A DNA stretch of 28,754 nucleotides from a virus. The notes beneath the pieces were generated by a model. The model was given only the letters and a program-made list of their open reading frames with translations. It made no database searches and was not told the origin of the DNA. The position numbers were made by a program, and so were the translations under genes. The stretch is from positions 1 through 28,754 of IMG/VR virus record IMGVR_UViG_3300024339_000061. One strand, 5' to 3'. Numbering within the stretch: the stretch's first letter is position 1; each line of letters begins with the position of its first letter. Positions 3,656 through 16,064 of this stretch are shown here, one piece after another.

Positions 3656-3832
3656 CCTTGCCTCGCCCCGCCGAGCCACGCCGCGCCTAGCCTGGCCGCG
3701 CCTTGCCTGCCTTGCTTTGCCTTGCCTAGCCGCGCCTGGCCCTGCCATGCCTAGCCTAGCCACGCCTGCCTTGCCTTGCCCAGCCACGCCTGGCCCTGCC
3801 ATGCCTCGCCTGCCTTGCCTTGCCCAGCCCAG
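3656..3832. repeat. CCNNG pentamer array 1
   Basis: About 35 near-continuous units of CCNNG (CCTTG, CCTCG, CCCCG, CCGAG, CCACG, CCGCG, CCTAG, CCTGG and so on). The outer CC..G stays fixed while the two inner bases vary. Occasional 4-base CCTG units break the phase. A block GCCACGCCTGGCCCTGCCATG-like appears in near-repeated form. On the transcribed minus strand the RNA reads CNNGG. The array lies between the 153-aa gene and the helicase gene. The plus-strand ORF across it is a low-complexity shadow. Confidence 0.95.
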
Positions 3833-4963: not shown

Positions 4964-5054
4964 TAAGTACCTTTCATTTCAAATGAGCTTGTTGTACTGG
5001 TCACTGCTCGCTCGTTACAGTGCCAGGACAGTTTGTGGAACTGCCAATCCTTTG

Positions 5055-5331
5055 CCATGCCTGCCTTGCCCCGCCTTGCCCTGCCTGGCCGCGCCTCGCC
5101 TGCCTTGCTTTGCCTAGCCTAGCCATGCCTTGCCTCGCCGAGCCTAGCCTGGCCGCGCCTCGCCTGCCTTGCTTTGCCTAGCCTAGCCATGCCTTGCCAC
5201 GCCTTGCCTGCCTTGCCCCGCCTTGCCTAGCCTTGCCGCGCCGTGCTTTGGAGTGCCTTGCCTCGCCTGCCTTGCCTTGCCTTGCTTTGCCCTGCCTGGC
5301 CGCGCCTGGCCGCGCCTGGCCCTGCCCTGCC
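5055..5331. repeat. CCNNG pentamer array 2 with internal duplication
   Basis: About 55 units of the same CCNNG type as array 1, again with 4-base CCTG interruptions and a few CTTTG units. A 51-base block at 5084-5134 is repeated without mismatch at 5148-5198, a 64-base offset, showing recent expansion by recombination or slippage. The array lies between the polymerase terminator and the RAMP-like gene. It has no start codon with a ribosome binding site and no protein-like composition in the sense strand. Confidence 0.95.
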
Positions 5332-8890: not shown

Positions 8891-9219
8891 GCTGTCAATG
8901 CCTCAGCTTTGCTTACGATCTCTGTGAGCTGGGTGGCATCAAGCTGATCCAACTTTGTCGCATTGTGATCACCGAGTAGTGTCACGAGTTCCTCGCGCTT
9001 CCCCGATGCCGCAACCTTCGTGAAGATGACGCGAGCCTCTTCCAGAGTCACTGGGGTTGGTGATTCAGCTTCGGGTTCCAGGGGGAGATCATGCTGGTTA
9101 GGGTCAATGCTGACCTCTACTCCTTGGAGGATGGTTTTGGTCAGGTTGCCGATGCTTGCGGTGAGCAGATCAACAGAGACACGGAGCTCTTGCACTTCAA
9201 CTTCGAGGTCGCTGATCAT
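8887..9219 (-). CDS. Small coiled-coil phage protein, 110 aa
   Basis: Residues 1-35 form a heptad-like helix (ISDLEVEVQELRVSVDLLTA...). A proline/acidic linker follows, then a helical C-terminal domain from about residue 57 (VTLEEARVIFTKVAASGKRE ... LVTLLGDHNATKLDQL). That layout matches small proteins commonly placed before DUF2800 genes in phages; they have no assigned function. Its ATG overlaps the stop of the 29-residue peptide gene and its own stop overlaps the nuclease start. Confidence 0.7.
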   Translation of the reverse strand: MISDLEVEVQELRVSVDLLTASIGNLTKTILQGVEVSIDPNQHDLPLEPEAESPTPVTLEEARVIFTKVAASGKREELVTLLGDHNATKLDQLDATQLTEIVSKAEALTA

Positions 9220-9305
9220 AATCCGGCCCTCAGCTTAGCCACGCTCCAGGAGTAGCCGTAGCACCACTCGCTGATGGCGTAGAAATATTGAGCTGCTTTT
9301 TTCAT
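9216..9305 (-). CDS. First early-operon peptide, 29 aa
   Basis: ATG 9305 follows GAGGAAC at good spacing, 31 bases downstream of the leftward promoter's -10. The peptide begins MKKAAQYFYAISEWCYGYSW and ends AKLRAGL. It is basic at the N-terminus with an aromatic-rich centre. Its TGA overlaps the next ATG (ATGATC), so its translation would couple to the rest of the operon. It could act as a leader peptide or a small amphipathic effector. No family known to me. Confidence 0.6.
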   Translation of the reverse strand: MKKAAQYFYAISEWCYGYSWSVAKLRAGL

Positions 9306-9336: not shown

Positions 9337-9366
9337 ATAATACGATAGGACTATTCCTGCTGTCAA
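9337..9366 (-). promoter_or_regulatory. Leftward early promoter (pL-like)
   Basis: Reading leftward, -35 TTGACA (9366-9361), an 18-base spacer and -10 TATTAT (9342-9337), a strong sigma70 match. It lies directly upstream of the early operon. One candidate repressor operator overlaps its -35 and another its -10. Confidence 0.85.
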
Positions 9367-9416
9367 TACAATAGTATTAATTTTAGGCAATAGATTCAAA
9401 TTAATACTAACGGACT
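9339..9416. promoter_or_regulatory. Left operator cluster, three sites
   Basis: Three 14-bp sites fit AATAC-N4-GTATT: 9339-9352 (AATAC GATA GGACT), 9365-9378 (AATAC AATA GTATT, perfect dyad) and 9403-9416 (AATAC TAAC GGACT). Their centres are 26 and 38 bp apart. The first two cover the -10 and -35 of the leftward promoter. A longer dyad, AGTATTAATTT (9373-9383) with AAATTAATACT (9398-9408), links the second and third sites. Likely bound by the CI-like and Cro-like proteins. Confidence 0.7.
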
Positions 9417-9432
9417 GTTTCGTAAAGGGGTG

Positions 9433-10122
9433 TTAGAGGATTTGATTCCTAGAAATTGCAGTACCAACTATGCGGATATTACTATTAACCTCAATGAATT
9501 GAGGGTTCGACGATGGATTAGATGCTTTTAGCAGCCTATCCCCATCTGTAGCGATAATGAGTTGCCTGATGGTGGCCTCGGTCATGTCATCTAGTTTGAC
9601 GACTACATAAGACTTGTTCTCTGCGTGCTTATCAGGGTCTATGAACACGACCTCATTCTCATAGAAGTCTGGCTCCATAGATCCCCCTTCAATGACCAAA
9701 GCGAAAGTATGCTCTCCCGCAGTCGTTACAGCACATGGTACCCATTCATCAGTGTACCCTGCGGCATGAGGGTCTACCGACTCATCCCAGTCCCCAGCCT
9801 GAGTCCAGGAGAGAAGTGGTACCATTTTAAAGTCACGCGATATTAATTCACCTAGACTAACGCCCACTATTGTAGTGAAGTCCTCAGCGGCCGATGGCAT
9901 ACCCATCGGGCCTTTCCCTGTGGCCAGCCAACTCTCCCTAACACCAAGGCGGTGTGCTAATTCTGACATATACGTGGTTCTATCCTGATCGCCACGTTCG
10001 ATTTTTGAGATCATACCTTGCGTAACATAGAGCAAATCGGCTAGTTCCTTTTGGGAGTAGCCAGCTTTTTTCCGTGCTAGCTTGAGTCGTAGCCCCAGTG
10101 ATGCGGGTACATCAGTCTTCAT
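9433..10122 (-). CDS. cI: CI-like phage repressor with S24 autopeptidase domain, 229 aa
   Basis: An N-terminal XRE helix-turn-helix spans about residues 10-65 (SQKELADLLYVTQGMISKIE). The C-terminal domain is a LexA/CI S24 peptidase: cleavage site A109-G110 in SWTQAGDW, catalytic S148 in EGGSMEPDF and K176 in VVVKLDD. This predicts RecA-stimulated self-cleavage and SOS induction. The start is set at ATG 10122, 6-9 bases after AAGGATAAG; an in-frame ATG at 10173 would run through the operator region without a good binding site. Divergent from the Cro-like gene and convergent with nothing, it lies between the two operator clusters. Confidence 0.93.
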   Translation of the reverse strand: MKTDVPASLGLRLKLARKKAGYSQKELADLLYVTQGMISKIERGDQDRTTYMSELAHRLGVRESWLATGKGPMGMPSAAEDFTTIVGVSLGELISRDFKMVPLLSWTQAGDWDESVDPHAAGYTDEWVPCAVTTAGEHTFALVIEGGSMEPDFYENEVVFIDPDKHAENKSYVVVKLDDMTEATIRQLIIATDGDRLLKASNPSSNPQFIEVNSNIRIVGTAISRNQIL

Positions 10123-10173
10123 GGACTTATCCTTTTTTGAAAAATTAAAATCTACCCATATTACACTAATCAT

Positions 10174-10252
10174 AATACAAATGTAGTAACTGTCTAGTGT
10201 AAAAGTCGGATAAATACATTAGTATTGACTGCGATAGTAGTACGGTAGTATT
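10174..10252. promoter_or_regulatory. Right operator cluster, three sites
   Basis: Three 14-bp sites of the same type: 10239-10252 (AGTAC GGTA GTATT), 10213-10226 (AATAC ATTA GTATT, perfect dyad) and 10174-10187 (AATAC AAAT GTAGT). The centres are 26 and 39 bp apart, almost the same as the left cluster. The first two overlap the -10 and -35 of the rightward promoter. The third lies toward the repressor gene, where it could control repressor synthesis as OR3 does in lambda. An ACACTA/TAGTGT pair (10163-10168, 10195-10200) flanks the third site. Confidence 0.7.
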
Positions 10253-10254
10253 AT
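10225..10254 (+). promoter_or_regulatory. Rightward early promoter (pR-like), predicted leaderless start
   Basis: -35 TTGACT (10225-10230), an 18-base spacer and -10 TATTAT (10249-10254). The ATG of the Cro-like gene begins at 10261, seven bases after the -10, which is where transcription should start. The 20 bases around the -35 match the leftward promoter at 16 of 20 positions. Confidence 0.85.
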
Positions 10255-10260
10255 CTGGGC

Positions 10261-10458
10261 ATGAATATACGAACTGAGATGCGAAAATTCCGTGAGGATA
10301 TGGAGATGACCCAGCAGCAGATGGCATCAGCGATTGGTGTTTCTCAGGGGATGATCCACCTAGTAGAAAAGGGTGAGCGTGAATTAGGCTCAAAGCCTAT
10401 CTACAAGCTACATCAGCTCGACCCACCGCGATTCCCCTTGGATCAGTTGCTCCAATGA
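10261..10458 (+). CDS. cro: Cro-like repressor, 65 aa
   Basis: A small single-domain XRE-type helix-turn-helix protein; residues 17-40 (TQQQMASAIGVSQGMIHLVE) give the recognition helices, similar to the CI-like repressor's own VTQGMISKIE. No ribosome binding site precedes the ATG, because the promoter -10 ends six bases before it, so it is probably translated from a leaderless message. Its size and divergent position to the repressor fit a lytic-switch Cro. Confidence 0.85.
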   Translation: MNIRTEMRKFREDMEMTQQQMASAIGVSQGMIHLVEKGERELGSKPIYKLHQLDPPRFPLDQLLQ

Positions 10459-10484: not shown

Positions 10485-10534
10485 AACCGTCTTAACCGTC
10501 TTAACCGTCTTAACCGTCTTAACCGTCTTAACCG
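10485..10534. repeat. Five tandem 9-bp repeats after cro
   Basis: Five exact copies of AACCGTCTT (10485-10529) plus a partial AACCG. The 9-base unit would encode Asn-Arg-Leu in one frame, but stops on both sides and the absence of a start argue against coding. It lies between the Cro-like gene and a strong hairpin and could be a protein-binding iteron or a processing or antitermination signal. Confidence 0.95.
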
Positions 10535-10576: not shown

Positions 10577-10617
10577 AAAACCCACATCGACCGTGGAAAG
10601 TCATTGATGTGGGTTTT
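10577..10617 (+). terminator. Long hairpin after cro, probable terminator
   Basis: AAAACCCACATC (10577-10588) pairs with GATGTGGGTTTT (10606-10617) in a 12-bp perfect stem with a 17-base loop. The descending arm ends in TTTT, and the complementary strand also has a T run, so it may stop transcription from both sides. It would limit rightward early transcripts after cro unless an antiterminator acts. Confidence 0.7.
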
Positions 10618-14989: not shown

Positions 14990-15285
14990 TGCGGATGGGA
15001 ATGGGAATGGATGGGCTTGAAGGCATAGAGCTGGCTGAGGCATTAGTGGCTGAGGCATTAGTGGCTGAGGCCGACCAGATCCACAAGCTGGTGATGAACT
15101 TACTGGACAATGTTGGGGGGCGACCAGCACTGCAGGTGTTCTATGGGCTGGTGGGTACTGTGGCGATTATCGCTCAGACAGTAGCCGATAGCTCAGAGAG
15201 TGATGTTGAAGCCGTGGTTGAACTGTTTACCGACGAGGTGTTGAACGAGATAACGATGGCGAGAACGGCGCAGGTTAGGCATTGA
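14986..15285 (+). CDS. Hypothetical phage protein with internal repeats, 99 aa
   Basis: Begins at ATG 14986 (ATGATG, overlapping the nuclease stop), with GGAG five bases upstream. The opening is methionine-rich (MMRMGMGMDGLEG). LAEALVAEALVAEAD follows, from a 15-base tandem repeat. The rest is helical and acidic (LVMNLLDNVGGRPALQVFYG; ESDVEAVVELFTDEVLNEI). No family recognised. Its place suggests replication or late-switch support. Confidence 0.65.
   Translation: MMRMGMGMDGLEGIELAEALVAEALVAEADQIHKLVMNLLDNVGGRPALQVFYGLVGTVAIIAQTVADSSESDVEAVVELFTDEVLNEITMARTAQVRH
15034..15072 (+). repeat. 15-bp in-frame tandem repeat
   Basis: GGCTGAGGCATTAGT occurs at 15034-15048 and 15049-15063, followed by the first nine bases of a third copy. 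It adds five residues (AEALV) per unit within the 99-aa protein without breaking the frame. Confidence 0.9.
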
Positions 15286-15709: not shown

Positions 15710-15970
15710 TTAAAACACGCTGAGAGGGCTTACAACAGCCTTAGAAGCAAGATGGATGGCGTAGGTCATAGGGATATAGTACCCGCAGAAAATGTCATCT
15801 TTGATGATCTCTCCATCCATCATTTGATATCCGTCTGCCTCGGCGGCTAGAGTCTCCCGACTCCCTTGTGCGACCGCTGCCAGTAAATCCTCAGCAGTCG
15901 TTACCCTGGCATCAGGGCTGATGCCTCGGCTGATCGCGATGTGTCCGTTATTTGCGTTGAAAAATGACAT
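15710..15970 (-). CDS. Small hypothetical protein, 86 aa, with multiple possible starts
   Basis: The core protein starts at ATG 15970 (MSFFNANNGHIAISRG...), 8 bases after AGGAG. Upstream are four more in-frame ATGs, at 15988, 16006, 16024 and 16042, each with its own AGGAG, supplied by five tandem 18-base repeats. Each earlier start would add the six residues MSGDNT. The body is mixed alpha/beta with no recognised motif (DLLAAVAQGSRETLAAEADG; DDIFCGYYIPMTYA). It is the last gene of the minus-strand operon and convergent with the Q-like gene. Confidence 0.6.
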   Translation of the reverse strand: MSFFNANNGHIAISRGISPDARVTTAEDLLAAVAQGSRETLAAEADGYQMMDGEIIKDDIFCGYYIPMTYAIHLASKAVVSPLSVF

Positions 15971-16055
15971 TGTGTTATCTCCTGACATTGTGTTATCTCC
16001 TGACATTGTGTTATCTCCTGACATTGTGTTATCTCCTGACATTGTGTTATCTCCT
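15966..16055 (-). repeat. Five tandem 18-bp repeats, each an SD plus ATG
   Basis: The coding-strand unit is AGGAGATAACACAATGTC, present in five exact copies. Each carries AGGAG, an 8-base spacer and ATG. The 18-base length keeps all starts in the same frame, so the locus offers five complete translation initiation sites in series for the 86-aa protein. Confidence 0.97.
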
Positions 16056-16064
16056 GTTGAGGGT

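Follow-up and report, generated by a model that had tools for sequence, protein, structure and literature searches.

Which proteins would read the palindromic repeats on both sides of the cI-like gene in this phage DNA, and what kind of switch would they form? The window analysed here is the whole 28,754-bp stretch of viral DNA, and from its sequence the six repeats very likely serve as the binding sites in a lambda-style lysis/lysogeny switch of the ordinary kind. We consider it highly probable that the proposed switch holds as a whole, that is, that the locus is a temperate-phage immunity region in which CI and Cro share operators at both early promoters.

Putative operators, promoters and repressor genes around cI

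The features of the region are listed below. The palindromic sites carry no strand, mismatches are counted against AATAC-N4-GTATT, and the positions of site centres refer to promoter starts predicted from the -10 element.

9216..9305, minus strand: leading 29-aa ORF of the PL operon, with GAGGAA ahead of the ATG; the stop overlaps the next ORF's start at 9219
9337..9366, minus strand: PL, TTGACA-18-TATTAT, 11/12 consensus bases (promoter scan)
9339..9352: O1L, AATACGATAGGACT, 2 mismatches; over the PL -10 region; centre -15.5 from the predicted PL start 9330
9365..9378: O2L, AATACAATAGTATT, 0 mismatches; runs into the PL -35; centre -41.5
9403..9416: O3L, AATACTAACGGACT, 2 mismatches; upstream, 38 bp from O2L; centre -79.5
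9433..10122, minus strand: CI-like repressor, 229 aa; HTH_3 1.1e-10, Peptidase_S24 4.6e-21
10169..10196, minus strand: candidate PRM, TAGACA-16-TATGAT, 10/12 consensus bases, best predicted PRM in the promoter scan
10174..10187: O3R, AATACAAATGTAGT, 1 mismatch; on the predicted PRM -10/spacer; centre -80.5 from the PR start and -18.5 from the predicted PRM start
10213..10226: O2R, AATACATTAGTATT, 0 mismatches; runs into the PR -35; centre -41.5
10225..10254, plus strand: PR, TTGACT-18-TATTAT (promoter scan); start 10261 predicted from the -10
10239..10252: O1R, AGTACGGTAGTATT, 1 mismatch; runs into the PR -10; centre -15.5
10261..10458, plus strand: Cro-like repressor, 65 aa; HTH_3 5.8e-7

The first-pass annotation had described six 14-bp sites fitting AATAC-N4-GTATT. 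All six are present where it placed them, with an exact fit in two of the six and one or two mismatches in the rest. The site centres, given there as 26 and then 38-39 bp apart, measure 26/38 bp in the left cluster and 39/26 bp in the right cluster, and the positions relative to predicted PL and PR bear out one site on each -10, one on each -35 and one upstream. The operators at PL, beyond cI, match those at PR, and a repeat finder, run independently, paired 9337-9381 with 10210-10254. The O2L and O2R centres are 848 bp apart, and only cI lies between the two clusters. The three related operators between cI and cro cover PR and PRM, both of which are predicted promoters.

The proteins resemble those of lambda/434-type regions. 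The CI-like protein combines an N-terminal HTH with a C-terminal S24 domain, whose residues we take to be the Ala-Gly in TQAGDW, the candidate Ser in EGGSMEP and the candidate Lys in VVVK; the Cro-like protein is a small HTH protein encoded divergently from cI. Rightward of cI, the Cro-like gene is followed by a Dda-like helicase gene and a primase gene; leftward lie the 29-aa ORF, a 110-aa ORF, a DUF2800 gene, and genes for an ssDNA-binding protein and a helicase. Replication and recombination genes thus open both early operons. Of the 14 window proteins put to Pfam or PHROGs, none was identified as an integrase, and the record, classed as linear, is likely a fragment.

The promoter scan gave 5 matches versus 3.2 (sd 1.9) in shuffles. 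The 16/20 identity noted earlier around the -35 of PL and PR is found in one 20-base frame, and neighbouring frames give 14-15. At both promoters, the GTATT half of O2 continues into the TTGAC of the -35, and the GTATT half of O1 continues into the -10 TATTAT. Most of the likeness between PL and PR follows from this overlap, which also fixes the O1-O2 spacing at 8 bp more than the promoter spacer (26 for a spacer of 18). In addition, the predicted PR start, 10261, coincides with the A of the cro ATG, and cro should thus be leaderless.

On the other hand, the geometry at PRM departs from that of lambda, where O2R sits near -42 of PRM. In the window, O2R is approximately -57.5 from the start of the best predicted PRM, this start being itself a prediction, and not at about -42 as for CI activation. 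With an O2-O3 distance of 38-39 bp, the middle right site falls at about -58 from predicted PRM, and lambda-type activation at about -42 is therefore not supported. Of the full lambda-like OL/OR layout first proposed, the anatomy stands (three OR sites between cI and cro, three OL sites beyond cI, and O3R on the best predicted PRM), but not the place of O2R. In general, the switch would work like those of lambda and 434, sharing the anatomical features of that family except for the PRM activation geometry; the 38-39 bp O2-O3 distance makes it a natural case where lambda-type PRM activation looks geometrically excluded.

Like lambda OL and OR, the window has three sites per cluster that flank cI and cover PL, PR and PRM. 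It differs from lambda in having only cI between the clusters, O2R off the -42 position of PRM and a cro predicted to be leaderless. In PY54 of the telomere phages, the cI and cro messages are reported to be leaderless (PMC4488713), and the leaderless cro message is the likeness to that predicted in the window; unlike the window, PY54 has one operator, a 16-bp palindrome.

Chance and alternative readings of the six sites

A motif scan of the whole record found exact AATACN4GTATT twice in 28,754 bp, namely at the two middle sites, one per cluster. At two or fewer mismatches, 18 sites were found in the whole window versus 8.7 expected, so the two-mismatch left sites are weak on their own and are carried by the layout. 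When the two regions were dinucleotide-shuffled 1000 times, no shuffle reproduced this layout (a perfect site in each cluster, mirrored spacing and at most 6 mismatches in total), either for AATAC or for any of the 1024 5-4-5 palindromes. The six-site layout does not arise by chance.

ATAACN4GTTAT pairs in viral contigs were tried as a chance control. The control failed: at least 120 stretches matched, and the pair spacings pile up at 24-25 bp among 80 of the matches listed (L079-L158). These pairs, very common in viral contigs, are evidently the operator of another phage group. Consequently, the argument here rests on the shuffles, the spacing and the helix association, and not on hit counts.

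Each promoter has both its -35 and its -10 overlapped by GTATT, and the resemblance between PL and PR could therefore reflect promoter sequence alone, with TATTGAC and GTATTAT repeated as parts of strong sigma-70 promoters and no repressor reading them. This is extremely improbable: the other half of each palindrome falls outside the promoter hexamers, the shuffles failed to match the layout (0/1000), and the operator word goes with the repressor helix type across phages. It is also unlikely that only O1 and O2 are real in each cluster, which would make a two-site-per-promoter switch with the outer sites due to chance. The left outer site, O3L, does have 2 mismatches, a level met elsewhere in the window by chance, and several relatives (L010, L017, L040, L043, L047) have just two good PL sites. 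However, O3R has 1 mismatch and lies on predicted PRM, O3L and O3R occupy matching places (-79.5 and -80.5), and a third OR site is located 34 bp from O2 in six relatives (L011, L037, L042, L051, L056, L008). Three sites per cluster remain the preferred reading.

The operator word and the recognition helix in other phages

Named phages gave no nucleotide match to the immunity region, and tblastn of CI in phages returned 297 records, all below 60% identity. The CI search of genome contigs gave one match (L019), and the Cro search of viral contigs gave none. Three overlapping scans of viral contigs collected 13 stretches with the operator-promoter combination, 53 with two exact sites and 14 with a PL-type pair. 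A spacing of 24 or 25 bp was seen in 20/68 pairs counted and a spacing of 33 bp in 23, the latter mostly tandem arrays (L025, L036, L058). Many of the 53 two-exact-site loci were rejected as switches, the 33-bp-spaced pairs being an example. The AATACN4GTATT arrays with a 33-bp period (L025 6641-6753, L058 1069-1313, L036 5590) have no adjoining HTH gene by the pattern used.

Many of the 24-25 bp pairs adjoin CI-like proteins with TQGLISKIERG, SQGTISKIERG or SQGTIGHLESG and Cro-like proteins with SQGAISHIETG. The same word, at like promoter positions, stands beside QG-helix CI/Cro in L010, L011, L017, L040, L043, L047, L052 and L061, all found by their sites, and beside QG-helix CI/Cro also in L008, L015, L037, L042, L046, L051 and L056; in the L210 record, QG is present in Cro and QS in CI. 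The operator word thus recurs in many uncultivated phages, beside repressors (CI, Cro or both) with a like Gln-Gly recognition helix. L003 is without any site at one mismatch or fewer. When 15 records chosen from the collected loci were searched for HTH_3, 10 matched, and four of the 5 without a match are short. AATAC-type sites lie beside CI/Cro in 8/10 matched records (G001, G003, G005, G006, G008, G009, G012, G015); the other two (G004, G007) showed no CI/Cro beside such sites.

Among the loci compared, the 26/38-39 spacing is seen in the window only. In L043, the OR spacings are 24/24, and a PL pair 23 bp apart lies on the far side of cI. The nearest to the window's 26/39 are the six relatives with a distant third OR site, whose spacings are 22-23 and then 34; the unequal O1-O2 and O2-O3 spacing is thus a trait of part of the group. 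By eye, a cro leader of 0-3 nt is also predicted in L011, L017, L043, L046, L052 and L061 and not in L008, L010, L015, L037, L042, L047, L051, L056, L210, L199 or L200, with L040 in neither group.

Since these relatives had been selected on their sites, an independent test is provided by the protein-only search, which gave 11 loci, 4 of them query sources. L199-L202 (two kinds, with GQGSISKIERG and KQGTISKIERG), found by protein alone, have a PL-type pair with a spacing of 24 bp, together with one OR site. No site at one mismatch or fewer was found near the gene in L207 (SQGMISKI, with Gly29 and Lys33) or in L208 (SQGTISKI), most of whose upstream DNA is missing, and L209, which has no Gln-Gly pair in the same place, lacks the PL-type pair and OR site.

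The structure nearest to the window CI is that of the 434 repressor, with TQGM aligned to 434 TQQS. The 434 immunity region likewise has 14-bp operators, three of them at OR, and the outer base A is kept in 12/12 window half-sites and in the readable 434 sites. Unlike 434, with its ACAA half-site, the window has ANTAC half-sites and an O2-O3 distance of 38-39 bp, and none of its half-sites shows the 434 specificity (ACAA...TTGT). Across the 12 half-sites of the window, A at position 1, T at position 3 and C at position 5 are invariant, while position 2 is A8 G3 C1 and position 4 is A10 C2. Eleven immunity regions, that of the window among them, contain 41 sites at one mismatch or fewer in 11.9 kb. 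Single mismatches in these regions fall at half-site position 2 in 12/14 cases versus 5/32 in the background (Fisher 1e-5, with a lower true weight because L199 and L200, which are related, contribute 6 of the 12). This shows a sequence motif nearer to ANTAC-N4-GTANT, which would fit the Gly found where the 434 repressor has Gln29.

In the 434 repressor, Gln28 reads base pair 1 and Gln29 reads base pair 2. In the 434 numbering that we assume for the window CI, Gly replaces Gln29 and Lys replaces Gln33, and Gly at 29 would leave base pair 2 unread. A parallel for losing one contact is the 933W repressor, in which S41A is reported to remove discrimination at pair 2 (PMC3317979).

Among 20 named phage or plasmid regions (12 + 8), exact AATACN4GTATT lies near cI in one, that of YP3. 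QG is present in the CI helix of three (Mcat13, YP3 and B. cenocepacia L240), and Lys or His at 33 is found in addition only in YP3. L240 (TQGLISQIENG, Gln at 33) and Mcat13 (Asp at 33) are without the operator word, so Lys or His at position 33 seems to be needed too. The cultured Yersinia phage YP3 resembles the window in its CI helix, SQGAIQKL (Gly29, Lys33), and in having AATACTATAGTATTGAC at PL with a poorer second site 25 bp on; it differs in that a single OR site at one mismatch or fewer was seen and the protein annotated next to cI is not evidently of the HTH type. Operators differ where the repressor helix differs (D3, 434, PhiR47_2 and Mcat13, the PhiR47_2 and Mcat13 repeats being read by eye). 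The Pseudomonas phages D3 and JBD44 also have CI/Cro with three putative 14-bp operators at 24-bp intervals, which are annotated in D3, and are unlike the window in their ATGGGAATACTCAT-type operator and DQTS helix.

The specificity that the first-pass annotation did not recognise is unfamiliar indeed, and the operator word was not found in the open-access literature searched, including with the six exact operator strings; it is not solitary, however, recurring in other phages and in YP3. The above results suggest that the operator word recurs in a little-described phage group under a simple repressor-site rule. There is about an even chance that this is a distinct, widespread class, ANTAC-N4-GTANT, read by Gln28-Gly29-Lys/His33 repressors, in which GTATT is part of both promoter hexamers, the O1-O2 spacing equals the spacer plus 8, and pair 2 goes unread for want of a side chain at position 29. 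Three points stand against the rule: L207 is without a site at one mismatch or fewer; upstream of the repressor gene of L239 (SQSS, no Gly) there is one exact match to ANTAC-N4-GTANT, in spite of the missing Gly29; and the window's Cro has Leu at 33. If the rule holds, the operators of many uncultivated temperate phages would be readable from the repressor helix, and immunity groups would be predictable. With this locus, the worked-out lambda-style specificities gain a well-defined candidate repressor/operator pair that has natural relatives.

Proposed operation of the switch and neighbouring features

The recognition helices of CI (TQGMISKIERG) and Cro (SQGMIHLVEKG) have QGMI in common and differ after it. 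At the position equivalent to residue 33 of 434, CI has Lys and Cro has Leu, and the two proteins need not therefore read the sites alike. They may even divide the sites, with Cro using O3R only and CI the rest; PY54 Cro is reported to bind a single operator (PMC4488713), and the difference after QGMI points the same way. The shared QGMI and the one motif common to the six sites argue against such a division, which we regard as improbable, and sharing of the operators by CI and Cro is preferred.

We infer CI and Cro binding, relative affinities, cooperativity, OL-OR looping and SOS induction. At both PL and PR, one dimer, on O2, would cover the -35 and another, on O1, the -10, and occupancy of O1 and O2 would shut both replication-gene operons in the lysogen. 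O3R, on predicted PRM, would allow cI to be shut off by Cro or by excess CI, and O3L may help the two clusters to form a loop. Finally, DNA damage would lead to self-cleavage of the S24 domain and release of the switch.

Several other features lie near the immunity region. At 10485-10534, between cro and the helicase gene, AACCGTCTT is repeated 5.6 times with no mismatch and could represent iterons or a spacer array. After cro, at 10577-10617, there is a 12-nt perfect inverted repeat ending GGGTTTT (fold -19 kcal/mol, z -4.2); a tR1-like terminator here, if true, would imply antitermination. On the minus strand, an extended -10 promoter-like site at 10668-10639 faces back to cro and cI from the helicase start, and lambda PRE lies in roughly the same place. 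Elsewhere in the window, minisatellite-like tandem arrays are located at 3656-3824, 5052-5331, 15032-15071 and 15965-16056, two of which are of the GCCTT type.
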